Source of the DNA: Methanobacteriota archaeon
Lineage (GTDB): Archaea; JAADCQ01; Methanopyri; Methanopyrales; Methanopyraceae
Assembly: GCA_027064425.1 (NCBI GenBank)
Contig: JAMOPO010000015.1
Location: forward strand, 310,001-374,000
Reading direction: 5' to 3'
DNA length: 64,000 nucleotides
A program made the position numbers and the translations under genes. This document shows positions 17,107 to 30,928 of the stretch, piece by piece. The notes below the pieces were generated by a model. It had not been told where the DNA came from, made no database searches, and worked only from the letters and a program-made list of their open reading frames with translations. Each line of letters opens with the position of its first letter. Position 1 is the stretch's first letter.

Positions 17107-20100
17107 TTACCACCGGGGCCGCCCACCGACCGGCCCGGCGCGCCTCAGCCCCTGGGTGAAGAGCGCCGCGGTCCCGACCGCCGCGAGCAGGACCAGAACC
17201 AGCAGCCACCGCGGGAAGTAGGGGGCCGCCCCCGACGGGTGCTCCCTCGCGAGAACACGGGTGGCCCTGACACCGCGGTGGGCAGCCACACCCGCCCCCT
17301 TGGCACCCGTGGTTGCCGCGGCCGGGCCCCTAGCCGGAACCCCGGTCAGTGAGAGGCCGCCGGTCGCCCCTCGGGACTGTGCTTCGCGGGTCCAGGGCCG
17401 GGAGATCATGGCAGTCAGCCCGCTCGGTGGCCCTGAGAGTCCTCGGGCCGGACGGAGGAGGGTTGAGGTGACGGCGGGGGTCGCCGGCGCAGCCGTGGCG
17501 ACTTCGGTGACTTCCGGGGCGGCCCTCGGGGTGGCCACGGGGCCCGTCGTCGCGCTTGCGGTGACGTGGGTGAGAACCGCCGGGGTGACTGCCGGGCCGG
17601 CGACCGGAACTTCGAGTGCGGCATGGGTGCCGACGGTCGGGCCGAGAGTCGCTGGGGCGGGCGCGGGACCCGGTGCCCTGGCGGGCCCGGTGATGGTCGC
17701 TGGAGTCGCGGTTGCGAGGCTCACAGGCGTCGGGGCTCCGATCATCGGAACGGTCGCGAGGAGCTCGGCGGCGAGCCGTGCCACCGCTTGAACCTGGAAG
17801 GCGCAGAGCTCCGGGCAGCAGCAGGACGTAGCTAGGACCCAGGAGAGGACCTCTCGCGGGTACGTCACGCCGAGGTCCCGGGAGATCCTCACCAGGAAGA
17901 AGGCGGCCGAGGCCAAGGCGGCGGGTACGCTTCGGAGCCAGCCCGCGTGCTCCCTGACGACGGACCACACGGTCGGCAGGACGGCCCGGTAGGGCTCTCG
18001 TCCCGCGGCCACGTAGCCGAGGGTGGCGAACCGCTTGAGGGATCGGAGCAGGTAGAGCGCGCCCGAGACCCCGAACCGCCGGAGTCCCTCGATGAATCGC
18101 CGGTTGAGGAGGGTCCGCAGCAGGCTCTCGACGAGGTACGTCCGGGTGGCGACTAGCGGCCCGGTGACGCCGCGCTCGACCTGGGCGTGGAGTGTCCGGA
18201 GCTCGGTCGTGGCGCGCAGGAGGGCCCTCCTCCAGCCGACGAGGCGCGCGAGGCCGCCGGCGCTCTTGGCCAGGTTCCACCCGGGCTTGAAGGCGCCCAG
18301 GTCGAGCCTCGAGACGTCCAGGGTGAGCCGTCGGAGGGTCTCCGGTTTGAGCAGGTAGTCGAGGAGCGCGGCGATCGTGGCCTCTAGACCCACCGTGCAG
18401 CCGCAGCAGAACAAGTTCGAGTAATCGTCGTAGGAGTCGTAGACCTGCAGGGTTGTGTCCGAAGTGATCACGGCAAGAGCGAGCGCGAGCGGGCAGTGGA
18501 GGAAGGGTTGCCGGGTCCCGGTGAGTTCGGAGCGGGTGTACGGAAGGATGACGTAGGACAGGCTGGCGAGCGCGCGTAGCCCCAGCCACTCGAGACTCTC
18601 CCGGTCGTACAGCCCCGCCTCAAGCATGGGGAGAATGGGGGCCGTGAGGTCCCCCGGGCACTGGGTGAAGGCACCGACCGCGGCGAGCACCGGGGCGTTC
18701 TCGCCCGTGAGCTCGCCCAGGAGCCAGCGCGGGAGGCCGGCCCGCAGGGCCTCGCGTAGGGCCAGGTACGACACGGCCCAGTTCAGGAACGGGGCGTTGC
18801 GGGAGGGCGGGATCCAGAGGCCGGTTCCCAGTGCTACGGACCAGAGGAGCTCGGCCAGGTTCCAGCCGACGAGGTCTCGCAGCCCCACGACCACGTAGTC
18901 GTTCAGCCGCTTGAGACCCTCCCACAGCTCCCGCAGCGTGCCCACCGGGTCGGCCCGCAGCCGCTCCCGGACCCGGGTGAGCAGGGCTCGGAGGAGCTGC
19001 GGAACCAGCCCGCGCTCGCGGAGGCGGGAGAGCGCTCGGTTGATCCACTCCTCGAGCGTCCGAAGCAGGTCCTGGAGCGCCGTGGACCGGTCGGTCCCGT
19101 GCGGGCGGGCGGTGGGCAGCAGGTACGACCGCTCACCCAGGGCGTAGGCGATCCACGGCTCCGCCGAGATCACGTCGAGCATTCGGCACAGGTTGATCAG
19201 CGATAGCGCGGATGGACTGATCCCCTGGAACGTGGCCCCGGAGACGACGAGGAGCACGTCGCACCTGACCCGGGGCTCGCGGAGCACGGTCACGGCCAGC
19301 ACCCTGGCGACCTTGACGTCGAAGGCCAGCTCGCCGACGACCACGGCGCGCCGACCCGGAGTCAGCCGGATGGGGTACCGGAACCGAACCGTGACTCGGG
19401 CCCTCGGGTCGCGCTCGGAGCGGAGCACGACGGTCCGGTCGTCCACCACGCGGTCCACGACGCCGGCGACGCAGGCGCTGGTGCCGCCGCACACGGTCGG
19501 CATCGCGACGAGGTCGGCCACGTCCACCACGTCCTCCTCACTGTAGTAAACGACCAGGTCAGCGCACAGCAGGCGCACGTTCTCCACCCGGATGGCTGGA
19601 ACTCCGAGCACCGTGACCTCGCTCCCGAGCGGGACGGAGACCCCCTCGGGGAGGATCACCTCCACCCGGGCCGTCCCGTCGTCCAGGATGGCCACGGTGC
19701 CCTCCGGTCCCGGGCGCAGCTCGGTGACCCGGCCGCGCAGCAGGAGGACCTGCACCGGGACGTTGATGTGCCGAACGTGGATCAGCGGTAGCTCCCAGGG
19801 CAGCACGCCGATGACCTCGCCGGTGAGGTTGGTCCCGTAGGAGGCCCGGCCCGTGGTGGTCGGCACGTAGCTGCGGAACGAGGTCTTGACCGGGATGTAC
19901 CCGAGCAGCTCCAGCGCCAGCGCGTACTGCAGACCTCCCGTCGCCAGGTCCGTCGGGCCCATGACCGTGACCACCCGCTTTGACGTCCGGCGGAGCTCCA
20001 GGGCCAGCGTGGCCGCGGCCGAGACCGCCAGCTCGTCCGGAAACCGGCGCACGTCGTATCCGCACGCGTTCCGGCCGGTCGGGGCGACGTCCAGGTACCG

Positions 20101-20847
20101 GAAGGGGGAGCCGGAGAACCCCGGGCGCACGTACTCGCCTCGCAGCGCCCGAAGCAGGTTCTCGACCTCCAGTCGAGCGCTGAGGAGGAAGCGCTGGAGT
20201 ACCCGCAGGGCCAGCCGAGAGACCTCGTCGACCGCCCGCCCGGCCCACACGGCCGCCCAGTCCACCCTCGGACTGGACCACAGCGCCCGCCGCAACGCGA
20301 GCTCGACCATGCACTCCAGCGAGCCGAGCGGGTCCTCCGGATCGATCGACGGCAGCCCGTACACGTGCAGCCCGCACATCCCCGACTCCTCCACAGTCTC
20401 GCGCAGGAGCTCGTAGAGCGCCTCCGCGCAGCGATCGAAGTCGCGCTCGAGGTCCCGGAGGTCGCGCGCCACCGCGACGTACAGCCCGGTCTCCCGGAGG
20501 AGCCCCTGAATCGCCTCCCTCAGGGCGTCGGCCCGGGTCGTCAGGTACCGCTCCAGCAGGTCCAGTAGCCTCGCGACCCGCGGGTCGAGCTCCACCCGGT
20601 TCCTCGGGGCGGGAAAGTGACCGAGGACGATCGCGCCCAGCCGGCGTCGCGCCGTCGCGCAGCCCACCACATCTCCCACGTGGTACAGGCAGACGATCGG
20701 CGTGCCGGCCGGTAGGATGATCGGGAACTCCCACCCCACGGGCAGGACGGGCTTCATCGGAGCCCACTCTAGGTTCCCGCGACCGCCCACCCGGACGACG
20801 GCGTCCACGTCCAGCCTCCGGGTCAGGTAATACCAGAACGCCAGGTT
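17107..20847 (-). CDS. CobN-like surface protein, C-terminal part after frameshift
   Basis: Continues the CobN-like chain in a shifted frame for about 1246 residues. It begins with the CobN segment LDVDAVVRVGGRGNLEWAP, keeps APTGRN, and has RVRCDVLLVVSGATFQG near the canonical RxDVxLRxSG motif. Two conserved histidines of the usual VHVGxHGxLEW motif are Arg here. About 160 residues of beta-rich, OB-like sequence interrupt the domain (roughly 19285-19775). The end is an Ala/Thr/Pro-rich stalk and one membrane helix (WLLVLVLLAAVGTAALF) with basic residues after it. It is therefore extracytoplasmic and anchored. The first in-frame start codon is GTG 20808, but homology begins upstream. Confidence 0.75.
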   Translation of the reverse strand, partial: NLAFWYYLTRRLDVDAVVRVGGRGNLEWAPMKPVLPVGWEFPIILPAGTPIVCLYHVGDVVGCATARRRLGAIVLGHFPAPRNRVELDPRVARLLDLLERYLTTRADALREAIQGLLRETGLYVAVARDLRDLERDFDRCAEALYELLRETVEESGMCGLHVYGLPSIDPEDPLGSLECMVELALRRALWSSPRVDWAAVWAGRAVDEVSRLALRVLQRFLLSARLEVENLLRALRGEYVRPGFSGSPFRYLDVAPTGRNACGYDVRRFPDELAVSAAATLALELRRTSKRVVTVMGPTDLATGGLQYALALELLGYIPVKTSFRSYVPTTTGRASYGTNLTGEVIGVLPWELPLIHVRHINVPVQVLLLRGRVTELRPGPEGTVAILDDGTARVEVILPEGVSVPLGSEVTVLGVPAIRVENVRLLCADLVVYYSEEDVVDVADLVAMPTVCGGTSACVAGVVDRVVDDRTVVLRSERDPRARVTVRFRYPIRLTPGRRAVVVGELAFDVKVARVLAVTVLREPRVRCDVLLVVSGATFQGISPSALSLINLCRMLDVISAEPWIAYALGERSYLLPTARPHGTDRSTALQDLLRTLEEWINRALSRLRERGLVPQLLRALLTRVRERLRADPVGTLRELWEGLKRLNDYVVVGLRDLVGWNLAELLWSVALGTGLWIPPSRNAPFLNWAVSYLALREALRAGLPRWLLGELTGENAPVLAAVGAFTQCPGDLTAPILPMLEAGLYDRESLEWLGLRALASLSYVILPYTRSELTGTRQPFLHCPLALALAVITSDTTLQVYDSYDDYSNLFCCGCTVGLEATIAALLDYLLKPETLRRLTLDVSRLDLGAFKPGWNLAKSAGGLARLVGWRRALLRATTELRTLHAQVERGVTGPLVATRTYLVESLLRTLLNRRFIEGLRRFGVSGALYLLRSLKRFATLGYVAAGREPYRAVLPTVWSVVREHAGWLRSVPAALASAAFFLVRISRDLGVTYPREVLSWVLATSCCCPELCAFQVQAVARLAAELLATVPMIGAPTPVSLATATPATITGPARAPGPAPAPATLGPTVGTHAALEVPVAGPAVTPAVLTHVTASATTGPVATPRAAPEVTEVATAAPATPAVTSTLLRPARGLSGPPSGLTAMISRPWTREAQSRGATGGLSLTGVPARGPAAATTGAKGAGVAAHRGVRATRVLAREHPSGAAPYFPRWLLVLVLLAAVGTAALFTQGLRRAGPVGGRPRW

Positions 20848-20851
20848 GCGT
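20845..20851 (-). other. Frameshift point inside the CobN-like gene
   Basis: On the coding strand the bases are ACG-C-AAC. The upstream frame reads ACG CAA CCT; the downstream CobN frame starts at AAC CTG GCG TTC TGG. Homology (PPT-x-NLAFWYYL against the family PPHxYLAFYxWL) is best restored by adding two bases, for example CA in a CACA run. A 2-base deletion therefore explains the break better than a +1 slip. It may be a real mutation, a sequencing error or recoding. Confidence 0.7.
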
Positions 20852-23188
20852 GGGCGGCAGGAGCATCGCCCAGAGCTCGGCGCGGGTCTTCATCCGAAAC
20901 AGTGGCGGTTCTGGCAGAATGTATACGTTTCCGAATCTTACTCCAGGTATTGGGAAGGCGCGCACGCCGTCGGTGATCCTCAGGAACGGGGACTCCTCGG
21001 GCGGGCCCCACCCGAACAGCCCGCCCAGCTCGTCCAGCCGATCACGCCACTCCTTCCACAGCTCGTCCAGCTCCCGCAGCACCGATTCCCTATCCACCGA
21101 CCGTCCGAGGGCGGCCTCCACCAGCACTCGCTCCACGCCCTCCAGCACCCGCGCGAGCCGGCGGGCGAGCTCCCGGCGCTCGTCCTCCGGGAGGTCCAGT
21201 CGGTCGAGGGCAGCGAGCACGGTGTCGCGGAGGGACCGGAGTCTCATCCGGAGGAACTCGAGGTAGCGTCGGTCCGGCGGCAGCTCCTCGGGACGGGCCC
21301 GTTCGACGAGGTAGCGGAGGTAGCCGAGGATGCCGCGCTCCACGTACAGCCGGGTGGGCTCGGGGAGGGAGCGGTACCACCGCAGGTACTCGTCGAGCGT
21401 GACCTTGTCCAGGAGCAGCAGCTCGACCCGGTGCGATCGGCCGGCGACTCGCTCGGTGATCCGGTTCAGGCCCGTGCGTAGGGGCGGCGTCCTCACGTAG
21501 GGGCCCAGGTGATAAGCTCTCGACAGGTACTCACGCCAGAACCCGTCCGAGAGCTCGAGGAGTATGTTCAGGGCTTCGCGGAAGGCCTCGACCGCCCCTC
21601 GCAGGTCACCCCGCTGGAGGAGCTCCCAGGCCTGACGATCGAGCTCGATAACGCGCCGGAGCCGGTCGTCCCACGGCGTCCGGACGGCGTACCCTTCAGC
21701 CTCGAGCCAGGCGAGGACGTGCAGGATGCTCGCGGGCACGTCCAACTGATCCGCCACGGCCACGAAGTCACGGCCGTAAGTATCCACGCCGTAAACCAGC
21801 GCGACTCGCTTCTCGTGGTTCGGCTTCTCTCGGAGCCGGCGCAGGTGGTCGACCAGGCGCACGACCGCATCGATCGTCTCGGAGACCGCGGCACCGCTGG
21901 CTAGGAGGACGCCGCCGGGCACGTGCCGGGCGAGCTCGGGCGAGAGCCGGACGACGCGGGAGGTACCGACGAGGAAGGGGCCGAGGAAGCCGAGGTTCTC
22001 GGGCACGATCACGTTGAAAATCATGTAATGGTCCGCGGCGCGCTCAGACATGTAGAGGCACTCCCACTGGAGCCGGGTCATGCCCATGTGGTTGGCGTCG
22101 AGGGCGACGACGGGGACGTCCAGCCGCTCGAGGAGGCGAACGAGCCGGCTGTCGGGACCGTAATACCGCATCATGCTGTGGTTCACGGCCCAGAGAACGC
22201 AGACGGTGCGCTCCGAGCGCACGGCGGCCTCGAGCGCGCGGAGGAAGTCCTCGGGAAGCATGTACAGGACGTCGTAGTGCAGGGCGACGCCGATCACGTT
22301 GTAACCGCGCTCGCGGAGCCGGAGGGCGAGGGCGCGCAGCCAGTCCAGGTAGCCGAGGTGTCGGCCGAGCAGGTTCACGGAGTCGAAGACGACGAACACC
22401 GTCGGCGCGCCGGGCCGGTACGTGCCTCGGGCTCGGGCGAGCTCGCGGTAGCGGGCGAGGAGCTCGGACAGCCTCGGGAGGACCGCGGCCCGGATCAGCT
22501 CGACGAACCAGCGCGGGTACACGGTGACGCCGTGGTAGCTGGAGAGGACCTCGCCGTGCGGGTACCTCCGCTGGTAGGATCGTATCAGCCCGGGGCTGGC
22601 GGGCTCCTCAGGGGCCACGACGGTGTCCGAGACGGGGTCGTACAGGGACAGCAGGCCGTCGAGATAGAACGCCTTGGGCGGCTCGCCCGTAGCTACGTAC
22701 CGGAAGAACTGGATCACGTTCCGCTCGGAGAGCGTGGCCAGGAACAGGTACAGCGGAATCTCGGCGCCGCCCACGTCGACGGTGCGGTCGGCGAGGGGGA
22801 TCATGCGGGCGCGGGCGGACCCGGTCGGGAGGTTGATCCGGTTCTGGTACACGTAGAACGGGACGCCGCGGGCGAGGGCCTCGGCCAGGGCCACGTACTC
22901 GGGGGCGGAGTAGGGCTCGAGCGCCGTCAGCCCGGAGGAGCGGTAGAGAACGACCGCGGAGGCCTCGCGGATGCGTTGGCAGACCTCCTCTCGGACGTCC
23001 GTCCGCTCGGCGCCGACGATGAGCGCATCGTAGGAGCGGGGGTCAATGGCCAGGAACTCGAGGCCGGCCTTATGCAGTGGTTCGAGGAACTGGCCGGCGT
23101 AGCGGGAGATGATCACGATCTCGCCGGCGTGGGTGGGGGTGGGGAGCAGAAGCAGCGGGAGCAGAAGGAGGAGGGTGGGCCGGGTCAT
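20849..23188 (-). CDS. CobN-like surface protein, N-terminal part before frameshift
   Basis: First 780 residues of a giant CobN/BchH-type protein. It starts with a leucine-rich signal peptide (MTRPTLLLLLPLLLL) cleaved after THA, so unlike cytoplasmic cobaltochelatase it is exported. Later segments fit the family: PRWFVELIRAAVLPRL, FVVFDSVNLLGRHLGY, and a late FGNVYILPEPP that corresponds to the CobN GNVFVGPQPP region. Homology then jumps to another frame at 20848. The same frame stays open to 19559 but reads as non-homologous Arg/Gly-rich sequence. It follows the toroid-protein gene by 16 bases and is probably its operon partner. Confidence 0.75.
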
Positions 23189-23204
23189 CGGGGGCGTTAC
23201 CCCC

Positions 23205-24581
23205 CTACCGGCGCCGGGCGAGGAGGAGGGCGATCAGGGCCGGTAGTGTGACGACCGGGTGGACGGGCAGCTTCCACCTCCTGACCTTCTTGCCGATTCC
23301 GAGCTTCTTGGCGAGGGCGAACGCGGCCAGCGCGTAGGAGGTGGCCAGCGTCTGGCTCCGGAACCGCAGCTCGGGGCTCCAGACGCTGCGGATGAAGTAC
23401 CAGTAGAACGGCAGCCGGAGGCGCTTGGCCTCCTGGTACTGCCGGTACAGCACGTCCAGCGCCTGCACGATGGCCGGGTGGTTCGGGTCGATGAGGCCCA
23501 GCTCGGCGCAGCGCAGCAGCGCGACGAGGGCGGAGGCGGTGCTACCGTAGTCCGGCGGGTACTCGGTCAGCGGCCCGCGGCCCCACATACCGGTCTTCGG
23601 GTCCCGGAGGGAGAGCAGGTAGTCGATCGCCCGCTTGAGGGCCTTCTTCACGCGCTCAACGAGGTCCTTCAGCTCCCGCTCCTTCCCGGCCTCGCGCACG
23701 GCCTTGAGCCAGTCGCAGAGGGCGATCATCGCCCGGGCGTGGCCCGTGGTGTACAGCGGGTACGGGCAGCCCGTGTCCCGCGGGTCGGTGTAGAAGTTGC
23801 CCTTCTCGTCCTGGTGGTTGAGGAACCACTCGACCACCTTAAGAACCAGGCCGTCGTCCGGCGGCGCGCCCGCCGCCAGCAGCGTTCGGAGGCAGTAGGA
23901 GGTCACGTCCGTGATCCCGTGCGCCCCGCCCGGCCGATCCGGGTAGTCGATCCAGAAGTAGCCCTCGTCCTCCTTTTGCAGGTTCGGACCCTCGCGGAGC
24001 CAGGCGACCACCTTCTTGAGGAACGGTTCGTACTCCCTCCACAGGTCGTCCGGGATGATCCCCGCCTTACGGGCCCGGAAGAACGGGAGCGCGAACTTCG
24101 CCGTCAGGCCGGCGCTGGCGACCTCCTTGCCCTGCCGGATCCGCACCCAGTAGGCCCACTTGCCGTTCGGGTCCTCCTTCCGCTGGTACTTGCCCTTGAC
24201 GTTCCACATGAACTGGAGCGCCTTCAGGATCATCTCTCGGACCGTGTCGTCCCGCACGCCCGCCTCGTAGGCCGTCAGGAGTGTGTCCATGACCACGTAC
24301 GTGTGCAGGTTCGGCAGGCAGTAGTACGTCACGTCCCGCTTGTACGTCATCGGGAACGCGCCGACGTCCTCGGGCTTGACCTCGTACTCCGCCCACTGGC
24401 CCTGCCGGTTCTTGTACCGGATCTTTTTGCCCACGTCCTTCTCCGTGTACTGCTGCTCCTTGAGCCAGGACTTCGCCGCCTGCAGGGCCTCGTCGATCTG
24501 CGCCGGGGTGATAGCGTGGGTCGGCGCGGCGGCGGTAGCGGCCGCCAGCAGGAGTACGATCAAGGCTCTCGTTGGCGGCAT
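23205..24581 (-). CDS. Secreted alpha/alpha-toroid (prenyltransferase-like) protein with C-terminal anchor
   Basis: A 458-residue exported protein. A signal peptide (LIVLLLAAATAAA, cleaved near THA) is followed by repeated helical hairpins with QW/terpenoid-toroid character: VTYYCLPNLHTYVVMDTL, DVTSYCLRTLLAAG, TTGHARAMIALCDWL and YGSTASALVALLRC. These resemble the prenyltransferase/squalene-cyclase repeat fold, but the catalytic DxDD of cyclases is not seen. It ends with a short hydrophobic stretch (VVTLPALIALLLA) and RRR. The next gene, 16 bases downstream, is the CobN-like surface protein, so the two probably form a surface complex. A TATA box lies about 40 bases upstream. Confidence 0.75.
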   Translation of the reverse strand: MPPTRALIVLLLAAATAAAPTHAITPAQIDEALQAAKSWLKEQQYTEKDVGKKIRYKNRQGQWAEYEVKPEDVGAFPMTYKRDVTYYCLPNLHTYVVMDTLLTAYEAGVRDDTVREMILKALQFMWNVKGKYQRKEDPNGKWAYWVRIRQGKEVASAGLTAKFALPFFRARKAGIIPDDLWREYEPFLKKVVAWLREGPNLQKEDEGYFWIDYPDRPGGAHGITDVTSYCLRTLLAAGAPPDDGLVLKVVEWFLNHQDEKGNFYTDPRDTGCPYPLYTTGHARAMIALCDWLKAVREAGKERELKDLVERVKKALKRAIDYLLSLRDPKTGMWGRGPLTEYPPDYGSTASALVALLRCAELGLIDPNHPAIVQALDVLYRQYQEAKRLRLPFYWYFIRSVWSPELRFRSQTLATSYALAAFALAKKLGIGKKVRRWKLPVHPVVTLPALIALLLARRR

Positions 24582-24898: not shown

Positions 24899-26110
24899 CT
24901 ACTTCTCGATGATGCTCTCCTCGACCTCCATGCCGAAGTGGCGGCCCTTGCGCTCCTCGGTCTCGACGAAGGCGAGCACCTTGTCACCGGGCTTGAGGTC
25001 GACGACGGAGACGGGCTCGCCGTCCTCGCGGACGAGGTGGATGGTCTCGGCGTTCTGGACGATGGTTTGGATTTCGATGCCCTCGTACTCGGCCTTGATC
25101 AGGAGGAGCGGTCGCTTCTCGATCTTGAGGCGGCCGACGACGGCGGTGCGGGTGTTGCCGTCCTTGTCGACGATGAGGACCTCGTCGCCGGGCTCGAGCT
25201 CGGAGAGGTACTTGGTCTTGCCGCCGGGCACGCGGATGTACGCGTGGACGGGCCCGGCGTTGACGCGGAAGGGCCGCGGTTCGACGTAGGGGTTGTCGAG
25301 GCTCTCGCTGTGGATCAGGAACATGCCGCGGGCGGTGGAGCCGACGAGCATGCCCTCTCCTTCCTCCATGAGGGTGCAGGTGTCGACGCAGACGCGGTCT
25401 CCCTTGCCGATGGGCTCGATCTCCTTGATCTCGACGGGGACGAGCTCGAACTTCTCGGCGGTGACCTCCTCGGCCACCTCGGCCGTCTTCTTGATCTCGC
25501 CCGGCTCGATGCGCTGGGCGTCGAGCAGCACGCCGTCGGAGCCGACCTCGAGGGTCTCGAAGGCGATCTTGGCCTCCTCCGCGTCCCGGGCGCCGGCGAT
25601 GATCTTGGTGGGCTCGTCCTGGAGCTCGGCGATCAGGTTCTCGAGTGGGATGATCTTCCAGTCGCGGCCGATGGCGATCAGGTAGTCGGGCTCGAGCTCC
25701 TTGGAGATGTCGGCGGCGAAGCGCTCGTAGGGCTTGTCCTCGATCTCGACGTACTCGGCGACCTCGTAGCCCGCCTCCTTAACCCGACGGATGAGCTCTC
25801 CGTCGATGGACTCGCTCACGTCGTCGGGCAGGTCGATCGTGCCGTCGCCCTCGCCTCGGATGCCGACGATGACGAGGTCGGCGTCGACGTTCTCCAGCTC
25901 GTCGAGGGCCAGGTCGGGCGAGCCGCCCTCGGCCGCGAGCGGGACGGCGACCTTGACGTTGCCCAGCTCCTTGACCTTCTCCACCTCCTCCGGTAGGCAG
26001 ACGATCACGTCCGCGCCGGCCTCGATGGCCTCGGTGACGAAGGGCTTCTTCTCCTCCCACGAGCCCTCAAAGGCGATCGAGACCCAAACCTCCTTCTTCT
26101 CGTCGCTCAT
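24899..26110 (-). CDS. aroB': 3-dehydroquinate synthase II (AroB')
   Basis: Second enzyme of the archaeal alternative early shikimate route: NAD-dependent oxidative deamination and cyclisation of 2-amino-3,7-dideoxy-D-threo-hept-6-ulosonate to 3-dehydroquinate. The 403-residue protein shows the family's conserved stretches VWVSIAFEGSWEEKK, GSDGVLLDAQRIEPGEIKK, DRVCVDTCTLMEEGEGMLVGS and RPFRVNAGPVHAYI. It is preceded by the gene for the first enzyme with a 7-base gap, forming a two-gene aromatic amino acid operon, possibly with a winged-helix gene at its front. Confidence 0.92.
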   Translation of the reverse strand: MSDEKKEVWVSIAFEGSWEEKKPFVTEAIEAGADVIVCLPEEVEKVKELGNVKVAVPLAAEGGSPDLALDELENVDADLVIVGIRGEGDGTIDLPDDVSESIDGELIRRVKEAGYEVAEYVEIEDKPYERFAADISKELEPDYLIAIGRDWKIIPLENLIAELQDEPTKIIAGARDAEEAKIAFETLEVGSDGVLLDAQRIEPGEIKKTAEVAEEVTAEKFELVPVEIKEIEPIGKGDRVCVDTCTLMEEGEGMLVGSTARGMFLIHSESLDNPYVEPRPFRVNAGPVHAYIRVPGGKTKYLSELEPGDEVLIVDKDGNTRTAVVGRLKIEKRPLLLIKAEYEGIEIQTIVQNAETIHLVREDGEPVSVVDLKPGDKVLAFVETEERKGRHFGMEVEESIIEK

Positions 26111-27337: not shown

Positions 27338-29296
27338 TTACGGGCCCGCGAGCGCGAGTAGCCGGTGGGCCAGCGCGCCCATCACCGTGGCCACGGCCAG
27401 GTTCGTCAGGAGCGCGAGCGCCGTGAGTCGCGCCGACTCCGTCTCCGTGTAGATCGCGCCCAGGGTGGACGCGCACGGCAGGTACAACGTGCTCACCAGG
27501 GCCAGGACGTACGCCTGGTCCGGGCTAAGGCGCATGTGGAGGGTGGAGATCGTGGAGATCACGGTCTCCTTCGCGAGCACCCCGGTGAGCAGCGCCACCG
27601 CGCCGCCCCAGTCCAGCCCGAGGAGCGGTTCGATCAGCGGCTCCAGCGCCTTGCCGACGAGCTCCGCCGCGCTCCCGTGACCGAGCGGCGCCGGGTACCG
27701 GGTGAGGGCCCAGATCGCGATGGAGGCGGCGAGGATCACCGTCCCGGCCTTCTTGAGGAACTCGTTCGAGCGCAGCCAGGCCACCCGAAGCACGGTCCCG
27801 GGGTGGGGCCGCCGGAGCCGAGGGAGCTCGATCACCGTGCCCAGGCCGGGCTCGGCCGGTCCGTAGAGCAGGCGGTTGAGCAGGGCGGCGGTCCCGAGGA
27901 AGGTGAGGACGGCGATCGCGTAGATGGAGGCGGCCGCGGGCACCCGCCATGGATCGGGCAGCTGGGCGGTCAGGTAGGCGATCACGGAGAGCCTGGCGCT
28001 GCACGGGATGGCGGGGAGGGCGAGGACGGTGACCACCAGCGCCCGAGGGTCCTCGATGATGCGGGAGCCCGTGATCCCCGGCACGTTGCACGCCAGGGAG
28101 AGCATCGCCGGGAAGACGGACTTGCCGTGCAGACCGAACCGCGAGAGCAGGCCGGCGAGGAGGGCGGCGACCCGGGCGGTGTAGCCGGAGTCCTCGAGCG
28201 CGGTGAGGAGCAGGAGCATGACCAGGATGTACGGGTACATGGCCAGCACGGTGCCCACGCCGCGGAGGATCCCGTCGCCGAGGAGGCCGCCCCAGGGCTC
28301 GGGCAGCGCCGCGCTCACGCGGTCCGCCAGGGACTCGAGCGCGTCCTCCAGGGGCTCGGACAGGAGGTCGCCCAGGTAGAAGGCGGCGGCGAAGACGGCC
28401 GTGATGGTCGCGCCAGCTAGGAGTCCGCCCCAGAGCGGGTGGGTGAGTACGCGGTCGAGCCGGGCCTGCCGGTCGAGCGCGGGGCGGCCGGAGATGGCTG
28501 CACGCACGATCTCCGAGGCGAGCTCGTCCCGGGCCCGCTTGATCGCGGCCCGGGGGTCCTGGTCCAGCGTCTCGATCAGGTCGCGGTGGATCCGCTCGAC
28601 GAGCTCGGGCAGGTCCTCGAGGTCCCGGCTCAGTCGCTCCAGCAGGTCCTCGTCGCCTTCAAGGAGCTTGATCGCGAGCCACTCGGCCCGGTGGCGGGGC
28701 TCGCTCAGCTCCCGCTCGATCCGCTCGCGGAGCTCTCGAACGGCGGCCCGAATGGGGCGCGGGTAGTCGACCCGGGGTGGCCTCGGCTCGACCCGTCCCT
28801 CCACGACGTCGGAGATGGCCCGTTTGAGTCGGTCGATCCCCGTACCGCGCTTGGCGGAGAGGGGTACGACCGGCACGCGGAGCCGGCGCTCGAGGGTGCG
28901 GACGTCCACGTCCAGGTCCATGCGCTCGGCCTCGTCCATCATGTTGACCGCGAGGACGAGTCGGGTGCGCCCGAGCTCGGCGATCTCGAGGAGCAGCGAG
29001 ACGCCGCGGACGAGGTTCAGCGCGTCGGCCACGACCACGATCACGTCCGCGCGCTCGTCGAGGCGGTCGAGGAGGAAGTCGCGGGTGATGCGCTGGTCCT
29101 CCGAGGTGGCGACGAGGCTGTACGTGCCGGGCAGGTCGATCACGCGGTAGCGGTGGCCTCGGAACTCGTACGTGCAGGTCCTCCGCTCGACGGTGACCCC
29201 GGGCCAGTTCCCGACTTCAAGGGAGGCGCGGCAGAGGCGGGACATGAGCGTGGTCTTGCCCACGTTCGGCGGACCCGCGAGCGCGACGGTTCTCAT
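27338..29296 (-). CDS. feoB: Ferrous iron transporter FeoB
   Basis: Membrane Fe2+ permease with an N-terminal GTPase. About 652 residues. The G domain has GPPNVGKTT, the switch II region DLPGTYSL, NMMDEAE as G4 and LSAKRGTGIDRL as G5. The membrane part begins near residue 285 with two Gate-type regions (LSLACNVPGITGSRI, LPAIPCSARLSVIAYL) and a C-terminal helix bundle. The ATG at 29296 fits the G-domain start; GTG 29311 would add five residues. It lies 11 bases after feoA, behind the DtxR-type palindrome, so iron-repressed expression is likely. Confidence 0.95.
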   Translation of the reverse strand: MRTVALAGPPNVGKTTLMSRLCRASLEVGNWPGVTVERRTCTYEFRGHRYRVIDLPGTYSLVATSEDQRITRDFLLDRLDERADVIVVVADALNLVRGVSLLLEIAELGRTRLVLAVNMMDEAERMDLDVDVRTLERRLRVPVVPLSAKRGTGIDRLKRAISDVVEGRVEPRPPRVDYPRPIRAAVRELRERIERELSEPRHRAEWLAIKLLEGDEDLLERLSRDLEDLPELVERIHRDLIETLDQDPRAAIKRARDELASEIVRAAISGRPALDRQARLDRVLTHPLWGGLLAGATITAVFAAAFYLGDLLSEPLEDALESLADRVSAALPEPWGGLLGDGILRGVGTVLAMYPYILVMLLLLTALEDSGYTARVAALLAGLLSRFGLHGKSVFPAMLSLACNVPGITGSRIIEDPRALVVTVLALPAIPCSARLSVIAYLTAQLPDPWRVPAAASIYAIAVLTFLGTAALLNRLLYGPAEPGLGTVIELPRLRRPHPGTVLRVAWLRSNEFLKKAGTVILAASIAIWALTRYPAPLGHGSAAELVGKALEPLIEPLLGLDWGGAVALLTGVLAKETVISTISTLHMRLSPDQAYVLALVSTLYLPCASTLGAIYTETESARLTALALLTNLAVATVMGALAHRLLALAGP

Positions 29297-29307
29297 GCAC
29301 CGCCCCC

Positions 29308-29532
29308 TCACTCCTCCTCCACGATCACCTTGGACGCGAGGCCGCGGCCGATCGAGAACGTGCTACCTTCCGCCCGGACAACGATCGGGCCGGGGCCCGA
29401 CTTGACGACCTCCACCCGGGCACCCGGCCGCAGCCCGAGGTTGTACAGCATGGCCGCGGCGCCTCGACCCGCCACCACATCCACGATCCGTACCACGCGG
29501 CCCTCCTCCACCTCAGCGAGGGTCTTGGGCAA
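29308..29532 (-). CDS. feoA: Ferrous iron transport protein FeoA
   Basis: Small cytosolic SH3-like partner of FeoB, 74 residues from TTG 29532. Family features are the N-terminal LPKTLAEVEEGRVVRIV, AAMLYNLGLRPGARVEVV and a final strand FSIGRGLASKVIVEE. Longer in-frame extensions run through the promoter and operator and are not credible. No clear ribosome binding site precedes the TTG, so the transcript may have a very short leader. First gene of the feoAB operon. Confidence 0.9.
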   Translation of the reverse strand: MPKTLAEVEEGRVVRIVDVVAGRGAAAMLYNLGLRPGARVEVVKSGPGPIVVRAEGSTFSIGRGLASKVIVEEE

Positions 29533-29562
29533 GCCCCGGCCCCGCCGAGCCGTCGGGTCAAC

Positions 29563-29595
29563 GTTAGGCCGGCCTAACGACACCCATCTATATAA
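29563..29595 (-). promoter_or_regulatory. feoAB promoter with DtxR-type operator
   Basis: On the minus strand a TATA box (TTATATAG, about 29586-29595) is followed by a perfect 16-bp palindrome GTTAGGCCGGCCTAAC (29563-29578), which covers the expected transcription start. The TATA box overlaps the end of the acetyl-CoA synthetase gene. The half-sites equal those at 13265. This is the textbook position for a metal-dependent DtxR/MDR1-type repressor site. Confidence 0.8.
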
Positions 29596-30928
29596 CTTTT
29601 GCCCAAAGCGCCGCGTTCCGCAGCGCCCGCGCCGCCCGCTCCGGCGAGGGGAACGTCGGTACCCCGGCCTCCTCGAGCGTCCTGACACCCACAGCCACCG
29701 AGTGCCGGCCCATCCACACGCCGAGCACCGGTCCGGGGAACTCCTCCGCGAACTCCGCCACGACCCGCGCCGTCTGCACGGGCTCGGTCACGCTCTGCGG
29801 GGTGAGGATCACGAGCACCGCCCCGTACCGGTCCGGGTCCGCGAACTCCTCCAGCGCTACCCGGTAGCGGTCCGCGTCCGCGTCCCCCAGCACGTCCACC
29901 GGGTTCCCCGTCGCCGCCTCCTCCGGCAGGACCGACGGGTCGCCCCCTGGCTCCGGGAGCTCGAACCCCGCCTCGTGCAGCGCGTCCGCCGCGAGGATCC
30001 CGCCACCCCCCGCGTTCGTGACGATGAGCACCCGGTTCGAGCGCGGCGGACCCGCCTTCGCCAGGAGCTTCGCCGTGTCGAACGCCTCCTCGAACCCCTC
30101 CACGAAGACCCCGCCGAACTGCTCGACCACCCCCCGGTACACCTCGCCCGAGCCCGCCAGCGAGCCCGTGTGCGTGCTCACCGCCTCCGCGCCCGCCTCC
30201 GTCCGCCCACCCTTCAGCACGATCACCGGCTTCTCCTCCGCGCACGAGGACAGCGCCTCCACGAACGCCCTCCCGTCCTTCACTCCCTCCAGGTAGAGGA
30301 CGACTACCTTCGTCTCGTCGTCCTCGGCCAGGTACTCCAGGAAGTCCGGGAAGTCTAGGTCCGCCGCGTTGCCCAGGCTCACGAACTTGCTGAAGCCCAC
30401 CCCGACCGTGCCCACGTCCCCCGAGGAGAACCAGTCGATGACCGAGGTCGCCAGCGCCCCGCTCTGCGACACGAACGCGATGTCACCCTCCGGCGGCATC
30501 TCCGCCGCGAACGAGGCGTTCAGCCCGGCCCGCGCGTTGATGATCCCCAGGCAGTTCGGCCCCACGATCCGCACGCCCGCCTCCCGCGCCGCCTGCACCA
30601 GCTCCCGCTCCAGCTCCTCGTTCCCCGCCTCCGAGAAGCCCGCTGAGATGACCACGCAGTACCTCGCGCCGACCTCGCCCGCCTCTCGCACGACCTCCGG
30701 CACGACCGGCGCGGGCACGGCGATCACGACCAGGTCGACCGGGGCCGGCACCTCCGAGAGCGAGGGGTAGCACCGCACGCCCAGGATCTCGTCCGCGTGC
30801 GGGTTGACCGGGTACACGTCCCCCTCGAACTCCGCGAGCAGGTTCCGGAGCACGCTGTGACCCACCTTGCTCGGGTCCCGGGAGGCGCCCACGACCGCGA
30901 CCGAGCGCGGCTCGAAGAGGCGGTCCAT
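29588..30928 (-). CDS. ADP-forming acetyl-CoA synthetase, alpha subunit
   Basis: Alpha chain of archaeal acetyl-CoA synthetase (ADP-forming), which conserves energy by making ATP from acyl-CoA. The 446-residue protein has the N-terminal CoA-binding Rossmann fold (VAVVGASRDPSKVG), succinyl-CoA-synthetase-like domains (GPNCLGIINARAGLNASF, FVSQSGALATSVIDW) and the phospho-histidine loop STHTGSLAGS. The beta (ATP-grasp) subunit is not in the window. Its ATG directly abuts the stop codon of the CBS gene upstream, indicating an operon. The feoA promoter lies inside its last codons. Confidence 0.9.
   Translation of the reverse strand: MDRLFEPRSVAVVGASRDPSKVGHSVLRNLLAEFEGDVYPVNPHADEILGVRCYPSLSEVPAPVDLVVIAVPAPVVPEVVREAGEVGARYCVVISAGFSEAGNEELERELVQAAREAGVRIVGPNCLGIINARAGLNASFAAEMPPEGDIAFVSQSGALATSVIDWFSSGDVGTVGVGFSKFVSLGNAADLDFPDFLEYLAEDDETKVVVLYLEGVKDGRAFVEALSSCAEEKPVIVLKGGRTEAGAEAVSTHTGSLAGSGEVYRGVVEQFGGVFVEGFEEAFDTAKLLAKAGPPRSNRVLIVTNAGGGGILAADALHEAGFELPEPGGDPSVLPEEAATGNPVDVLGDADADRYRVALEEFADPDRYGAVLVILTPQSVTEPVQTARVVAEFAEEFPGPVLGVWMGRHSVAVGVRTLEEAGVPTFPSPERAARALRNAALWAKVI

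Follow-up and report, generated by a model that had tools for sequence, protein, structure and literature searches.

An exported CobN-like protein without the conserved chelatase histidines and its alpha/alpha-toroid partner as a candidate surface module in Methanopyrus

The 64,000-nucleotide stretch of DNA analysed here (the window) comes from an archaeon of the Methanopyraceae that resembles Methanopyrus, a thermophilic methanogen (assembly GCA_027064425.1, contig JAMOPO010000015.1, positions 310,001 to 374,000; genome G000, a draft of 57 contigs) and carries two adjacent genes for exported proteins on its minus strand. The first encodes a predicted toroid protein of 458 amino acids, and the second, after a gap of 16 bases, a very large relative of the cobaltochelatase subunit CobN (Table 1). 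In the two congeneric genomes used for comparison, G001 (complete) and G002, the orthologue of the CobN-like gene is a single open reading frame (ORF) of 1,944 and 1,942 amino acids, respectively, with a signal-like start, a CobN body, an Ala/Thr/Pro stalk and a C-terminal helix, and it is preceded by the same toroid gene. In the window the gene is split over two ORFs. The true-coding part of the first holds the signal peptide, the head/neck and the start of domain III, so that signal peptide and membrane anchor lie on separate ORFs and none in the window has both. The first-pass annotation had described a CobN-like protein with signal peptide, stalk and terminal helix, which holds for the intact orthologues and fails for any one window ORF; its description of the neighbour as a toroid protein encoded just upstream in the same direction, with a signal-like segment and a C-terminal hydrophobic segment, agrees with the ORFs. 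Export and anchor calls were made from hydropathy and from the orthologue ORFs, the segments being termed signal-like, and the signal-like N-terminus and C-terminal helix together predict a non-cytoplasmic location for the CobN-like protein.

Table 1. Positions of the toroid gene, the CobN-like gene and the segments of its product in the window
Feature	Position	Strand	Remarks
Exported toroid protein	23205..24581	-	Signal-like N-terminus, 12-helix alpha/alpha toroid, C-terminal hydrophobic segment + RRR
CobN-like gene, first ORF	19559..23188	-	True coding from 23188 to about 20848, remainder out of frame
Signal-peptide-like segment of CobN-like protein, MTRPTLLLLLPLLLLPTPTHA	23126..23188	-	From sequence; kept in orthologues
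Frameshift point	20846..20847	-	5 bases absent relative to both congeneric orthologues (DNA alignment)
CobN-like gene, second ORF	17107..20808	-	Rest of domain III, oligonucleotide/oligosaccharide-binding (OB)-like insert, domains V-VI, stalk, membrane helix
RVGGRG replacing HFG(T/A)HG	20776..20793	-	Both His to Arg
Beta-rich insert, tandem OB-like character	19270..19752	-	Alignment, orthologue model, sub-threshold PF01336, OB folds among weak PDB matches
LFCCGC replacing domain V acidic/GG motif	18397..18414	-	
Cys motif SCCCPELC, end of CobN body	17803..17826	-	Counterpart of CCHHTCGNP elsewhere in archaea
Ala/Thr/Pro-rich stalk	17224..17796	-	About 190 amino acids, 70% A/T/P/G/V
Membrane helix at the C-terminus, then a short basic tail with final Trp (GGRPRW)	17107..17223	-	Strong helix

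The CobN-like gene of the source genome is either freshly broken or mis-assembled, and owing to the frameshift the window copy may be inactive in the sequenced genome. Substitution rates at codon positions 1, 2 and 3 in the three-genome alignment are 0.233, 0.134 and 0.435 upstream of the deletion and 0.247, 0.151 and 0.446 downstream of it in the second frame; both sides show the pattern of coding constraint, each in its own frame. The split by a 5-base deletion of a gene that is intact in both orthologues is what a recent pseudogene would look like, and such a pseudogene would be compatible with the functional explanation developed below for the intact orthologues. The persistence of constraint downstream of the deletion speaks for an assembly error, which is plausible in a 57-contig draft and has a precedent in the hmuS gene of Bacteroides thetaiotaomicron, into which the first assembly had likewise introduced a false frameshift (PMC12583661). 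Pseudogene and assembly error are judged to be evenly balanced.

The CobN-like protein belongs by sequence to the class I chelatase superfamily (PF02514), the two window ORFs scoring 103 and 122 bits and an intact orthologue 289 bits, against a cut-off of 24.5. The first ORF covers positions 52-350 of the CobN profile and the second covers positions 425-789. An AlphaFold2 model of the body of the G002 orthologue (amino acids 436-1600; predicted local distance difference test (pLDDT) 78, predicted template modelling score (pTM) 0.75), which ends at the domain V motif with domain VI lying beyond, returned only CobN, ChlH or HmuS structures as its first 13 matches in a PDB fold search (E 1.5e-17 to 1.6e-13). 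The model thus supports a fold of the class I chelatase superfamily. Among the aligned family members, the OB-like insert is confined to two of the Methanopyrus paralogue types introduced below, A and B. Most exported Methanopyrus CobN-like proteins end in a Trp (GW, RW, NW or TW) just past the membrane helix, and this tail may be a docking site on the cytoplasmic side.

For the partner, a single-sequence AlphaFold2 model (pLDDT 65, pTM 0.71) consists of 12 helices and supports an alpha/alpha toroid. Its top PDB matches are exclusively alpha/alpha toroids, namely GH105 enzymes, squalene-hopene cyclase and alpha-2-macroglobulin/complement proteins, the best of them at E 6.5e-6 and TMt 0.63. The orthologous toroids are 79% identical. 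The window toroid falls below the threshold of PF13243 (22.1 bits against a cut-off of 26.1), one paralogue toroid passes it with 54.4 bits, and neither a DxDD nor a CGEQ motif is present in the window toroid sequence. A relationship to transcobalamin or intrinsic factor was also considered and dropped, as neither was within the top 50 PDB fold matches. Compared with known toroids (GH105, squalene-hopene cyclase, the thioester domain of complement and alpha-2-macroglobulin), the window protein shares the fold and differs in being sub-threshold in Pfam, exported and tied to CobN-like genes.

The pairing of the two genes is strict within the genus. The complete genome G001 contains five exported CobN-like genes, designated A, B, C1, C2 and D, and five toroid genes, every pair being adjacent and no toroid gene lying outside the pairs; the five pairs recur in G002, where there is also one more toroid, so that five of the six toroids there are paired. 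The source genome likewise has several exported CobN-like genes, alongside a canonical cytoplasmic CobN. The pairs are arranged in tandem in types A and B and divergently in types C and D. The CobN-like and toroid trees share the groups ((A,B),(C1,C2),D), and the distances within the two families are correlated (r=0.955, permutation p=1e-4). Given these matching trees and correlated distances, the CobN-toroid unit was most likely duplicated as a pair.

Further CobN-related and toroid genes were seen in these genomes. Three similar short contigs of the source genome (C9, C10 and C55; loci L132, L133 and L134) each carry a C2-type toroid adjoining an exported coiled-coil protein and look like repeats of the C2 locus, either of recent origin by duplication or unresolved. 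A second CobN of the cytoplasmic type is encoded as separate N- and C-terminal halves on opposite strands (L058, G000 C26:28882-32260; L137, G002 C1:621296-624301), one of the halves in G001 containing stop codons, and separate CobN C-terminal halves of about 500 amino acids also occur in other archaea (G079, G109, G115 and G128). An exported protein of 490 amino acids at the C1 locus was considered as a CbiX-like class II chelatase and rejected, the Pfam match being weak (17.1 against 22 bits) and its orthologues giving no support.

What sets the window type, type A, apart is its active site. The motif HFG(T/A)HG is conserved across the chelatase superfamily, and its histidine corresponds to His538 of HmuS, which is essential for turnover (PMC12583661). 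The histidine is near-universal in the exported family, being kept in 18 of 20 full-length exported proteins of Methanopyrus and in 22 of 23 of other archaea, where L116 is the deviant. The two Methanopyrus exceptions are of type A, like the window copy, and type A is the only Methanopyrus paralogue with an Arg at this near-invariant position. The replacement is found in all three species, as RVGGRG in the window and as RVGGRG and RIGSRG in the two orthologues; the family alignment shows the second histidine of the motif retained in types B, C1, C2 and D. The domain V motif of HmuS, LSLDHxxEFMGG, is also unmatched in the window protein, where SNLFCCGCTVGLEA occupies the site; in type A, LFCCGC stands in for its acidic residues and GG. 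Many exported proteins have in common that their body ends in a Cys motif, CCHHTCGNP in most other archaea and CCCPELC in type A.

Beyond Methanopyrus, archaeal CobN-like proteins fall into two kinds in these data, cytoplasmic and exported: a C-terminal membrane segment is present in 28 of 28 long and 0 of 9 short proteins tested. Across 247 archaeal genomes, a long CobN-like protein occurs in 27 of the 27 that bear DUF2149 and in 1 of the 27 that have CobN without DUF2149 (Fisher 2.9e-14). The long genes of other archaea often adjoin genes for DUF2162, an ExbB-family protein and DUF2149. In a survey of 97 loci of CobN-like relatives outside Methanopyrus, nearly all of the exported type and including named Methanosarcinales, anaerobic methanotrophic archaea (ANME), Desulfobacterota, Planctomycetota, Dyadobacter and Betaproteobacteria, ExbB was found at at least 63, DUF2149 at at least 63 and DUF2162 at at least 38, these being lower bounds as contig ends cut many loci. 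The survey patterns included the chelatase motif and are therefore uninformative on its loss; the retention counts given above come from profile hits. The DUF2162-ExbB-DUF2149 operon occurs exactly once per Methanopyrus genome (L129 6373-8552, L130 5718-7896, L131 6709-8902); it is preceded by a protein of about 220 amino acids of unknown family, and its DUF2162 carries an N-terminal extension of about 150 amino acids. DUF2149 has one membrane segment, starting with an Asp that is invariant in 65 of 65 sequences, a layout shared with ExbD. In Porphyromonas gingivalis the hmuYRSTUV genes are annotated as HmuY, TonB receptor, CobN, hypothetical protein, ExbB and DUF2149 (PMC10434189), which makes HmuU the counterpart of the archaeal ExbB and HmuV that of DUF2149. 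Expression data connect archaeal CobN-like proteins with metal supply: the BtuS-type proteins of Methanosarcina barkeri respond to the iron/sulfur source (PMC10846266), and the annotated CobN1 of Methanothermobacter marburgensis is, with NikR1, at a high level only under Ni limitation (PMC12350162).

A close characterised system is HmuS, an exported heme de-chelatase of Bacteroidota that takes iron from heme outside the cytoplasm (PMC12583661). The exported, membrane-anchored class I chelatase fold of HmuS (PDB 9d26/9p4s; PMC12583661, PMC13227078) is shared by the window protein, and its neighbours hmuU (ExbB) and hmuV (DUF2149) also adjoin relatives of the window protein. Unlike HmuS, the window protein has neither the HFGTHG histidines nor the domain V motif; it has instead an OB-like insert, a stalk, Cys motifs and a toroid partner, and it is accompanied by no HmuY or HmuR. 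With CobN and ChlH (PDB 7c6o, 9uk9 and 4zhj) it shares the superfamily by sequence and fold, but these are cytoplasmic and driven by an ATPase, whereas the window protein is exported and anchored and is without the conserved His. The exported archaeal 'CobN'/BtuS-like proteins of Methanosarcinales and other methanogens have the same signal peptide, CobN body, Cys-rich motif at the body end and C-terminal helix. In contrast to the window type, nearly all of them keep the His and most have CCHHTCGNP, and in the locus survey they often occur with DUF2162-ExbB-DUF2149, never with a toroid.

On this basis the locus may be one of five Methanopyrus surface modules, the window type being a surface tetrapyrrole-binding pseudo-chelatase from a branch of the exported, HmuS-like chelatases that is specific to this lineage, a reading that is put forward tentatively, at slightly less than an even chance. 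Each module would combine an outward-facing, membrane-anchored member of the class I chelatases (CobN/ChlH/HmuS fold) with a dedicated secreted toroid, a putative cap or scaffold, the two having been duplicated together. By analogy with the action of HmuS on heme, the exported family would bind and (de)metallate tetrapyrroles outside the cell. ExbB and DUF2149, with its invariant Asp, may couple an ion gradient to the exported CobN-like proteins, since the archaea concerned lack the outer membrane that a TonB system would serve; the single ExbB/DUF2149/DUF2162 module would then serve the whole Methanopyrus family, ion-motive energy replacing the cytoplasmic CobST ATPase. Type A, in which the His and the domain V motif are gone and Cys clusters have appeared, is read as a non-catalytic receptor or carrier that could capture a tetrapyrrole or its metal and pass it to a catalytic paralogue or to the membrane module. 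The wider proposal, in which an ion-motive ExbB/DUF2149 motor with an ExbD-like DUF2149 takes the place of an AAA+ ATPase for exported class I chelatases across archaea that have neither outer membrane nor TonB, and the five toroid-capped Methanopyrus chelatases share one such motor with the window type as pseudo-chelatase receptor, is considered rather unlikely as a whole.

Several observations weigh against this interpretation. Overall TM-scores of the orthologue model to solved chelatases are low, about 0.33, perhaps partly because of the beta-rich OB-like insert. The head domain of the window protein is too divergent for reliable alignment with the heme-site residues Met79 and His254 and the Met-rich insertion of HmuS. 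The Methanopyrus DUF2162-ExbB-DUF2149 operon is unlinked to the window pair and to the other CobN-like genes. PDB and Pfam searches found no homology between DUF2149 and ExbD, the likeness being one of layout only, which leaves ion-gradient coupling hypothetical. The CobN1 of M. marburgensis may not be of the exported type. No toroid was found at the 97 loci outside Methanopyrus, so the toroid is not a general part of the system; in 242 other archaeal genomes the toroid family gave weak matches only, in six of them, and among the genomes examined toroid pairing is limited to Methanopyrus.

Type A could instead still be an active surface (de)chelatase working through its Arg and the cysteines of CCGC and CCCPELC, perhaps on another metal or macrocycle. 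Its full length is conserved with a coding-constraint pattern in three species, the remaining CobN fold is kept and the new Cys motifs are conserved. The equivalent His538 is, however, indispensable in HmuS and kept in nearly all relatives, and in type A both histidines and the domain V motif have gone together, which makes retained activity improbable. A second alternative, given the same low probability, takes the CobN fold as a re-used scaffold in a module that binds or processes a surface polymer such as an S-layer glycan, pseudomurein or exopolysaccharide. The closest solved folds of the toroid are GH105 unsaturated glycuronyl hydrolases, paralogue toroids have weak Pec_lyase matches, and the long stalk, typical of surface proteins, and the OB-like insert would fit as well. 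An alpha/alpha toroid fold by itself says little on substrate, though, and the chelatase His is in place in the four sister types; together with the parallel to hmu, the association of long CobN-like proteins with DUF2149 across archaeal genomes favours a tetrapyrrole or metal. Among the tetrapyrroles, metals and polymers initially suggested as ligands, the first two are better supported. An ordinary CobN of B12 synthesis, although CobN is the best named family, is ruled out by scores far under the equivalog cut-offs (99 against 1235 bits for PRK12321, 81 against 822 bits for TIGR02257), by the signal peptide and anchor, and by the separate canonical cytoplasmic CobN of the genome, which has HFGTHG intact and scores 1,024 bits.

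The pair is conserved and distinct from ordinary cytoplasmic CobN, and the surface module of CobN fold and toroid proposed by the first-pass annotation is right in outline. Its refuting test, set beforehand, was the absence of paired genes from related genomes, and pairing is conserved in the congeneric genomes and among the paralogues; the structure predictions agree with the folds it named for both proteins, and the neighbourhood survey shows exported CobN-like proteins to be widespread, often with ExbB, DUF2149 and DUF2162, without extending the toroid beyond Methanopyrus. Its placement of the protein outside the membrane is upheld by export and anchor, but HmuS, itself exported, demonstrates that such a location does not by itself exclude chelatase chemistry (PMC12583661). 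HmuS, the motor-like genes, the loss of the catalytic His and the frameshift had been overlooked.

Among the neighbouring genes, FeoB and FeoA (27338-29688) share the strand of the toroid gene and lie 2.7 kb upstream of it; they were considered as a linked iron system and set aside, being absent at this place in the congeneric loci. At two further archaeal loci (L114 11103-13058, L154 3756-5708) an exported CobN-like gene is immediately followed by FeoB. The gene at 24899-26110 codes for 3-dehydroquinate synthase II, in which a Hint module is matched weakly and below threshold (E 1.9e-4). In G001 and G002 an ArsP_1-type permease (PF03773) stands between this gene and the toroid (L049 10043-11065, L050 9628-10611); it is missing from the window and so is not an essential part.

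The 2025 HmuS paper calls the role of many archaeal CobN-like proteins outside the cob pathway unclear. The exported kind tracks DUF2149 genome by genome, often beside ExbB, in organisms without an outer membrane, and may represent an ion-driven extracellular chelatase or de-chelatase that scavenges metal or tetrapyrrole in methanogens. To this family Methanopyrus adds a toroid partner, one for each exported CobN-like protein, and its type A would be a natural catalytic-site mutant fixed in evolution.

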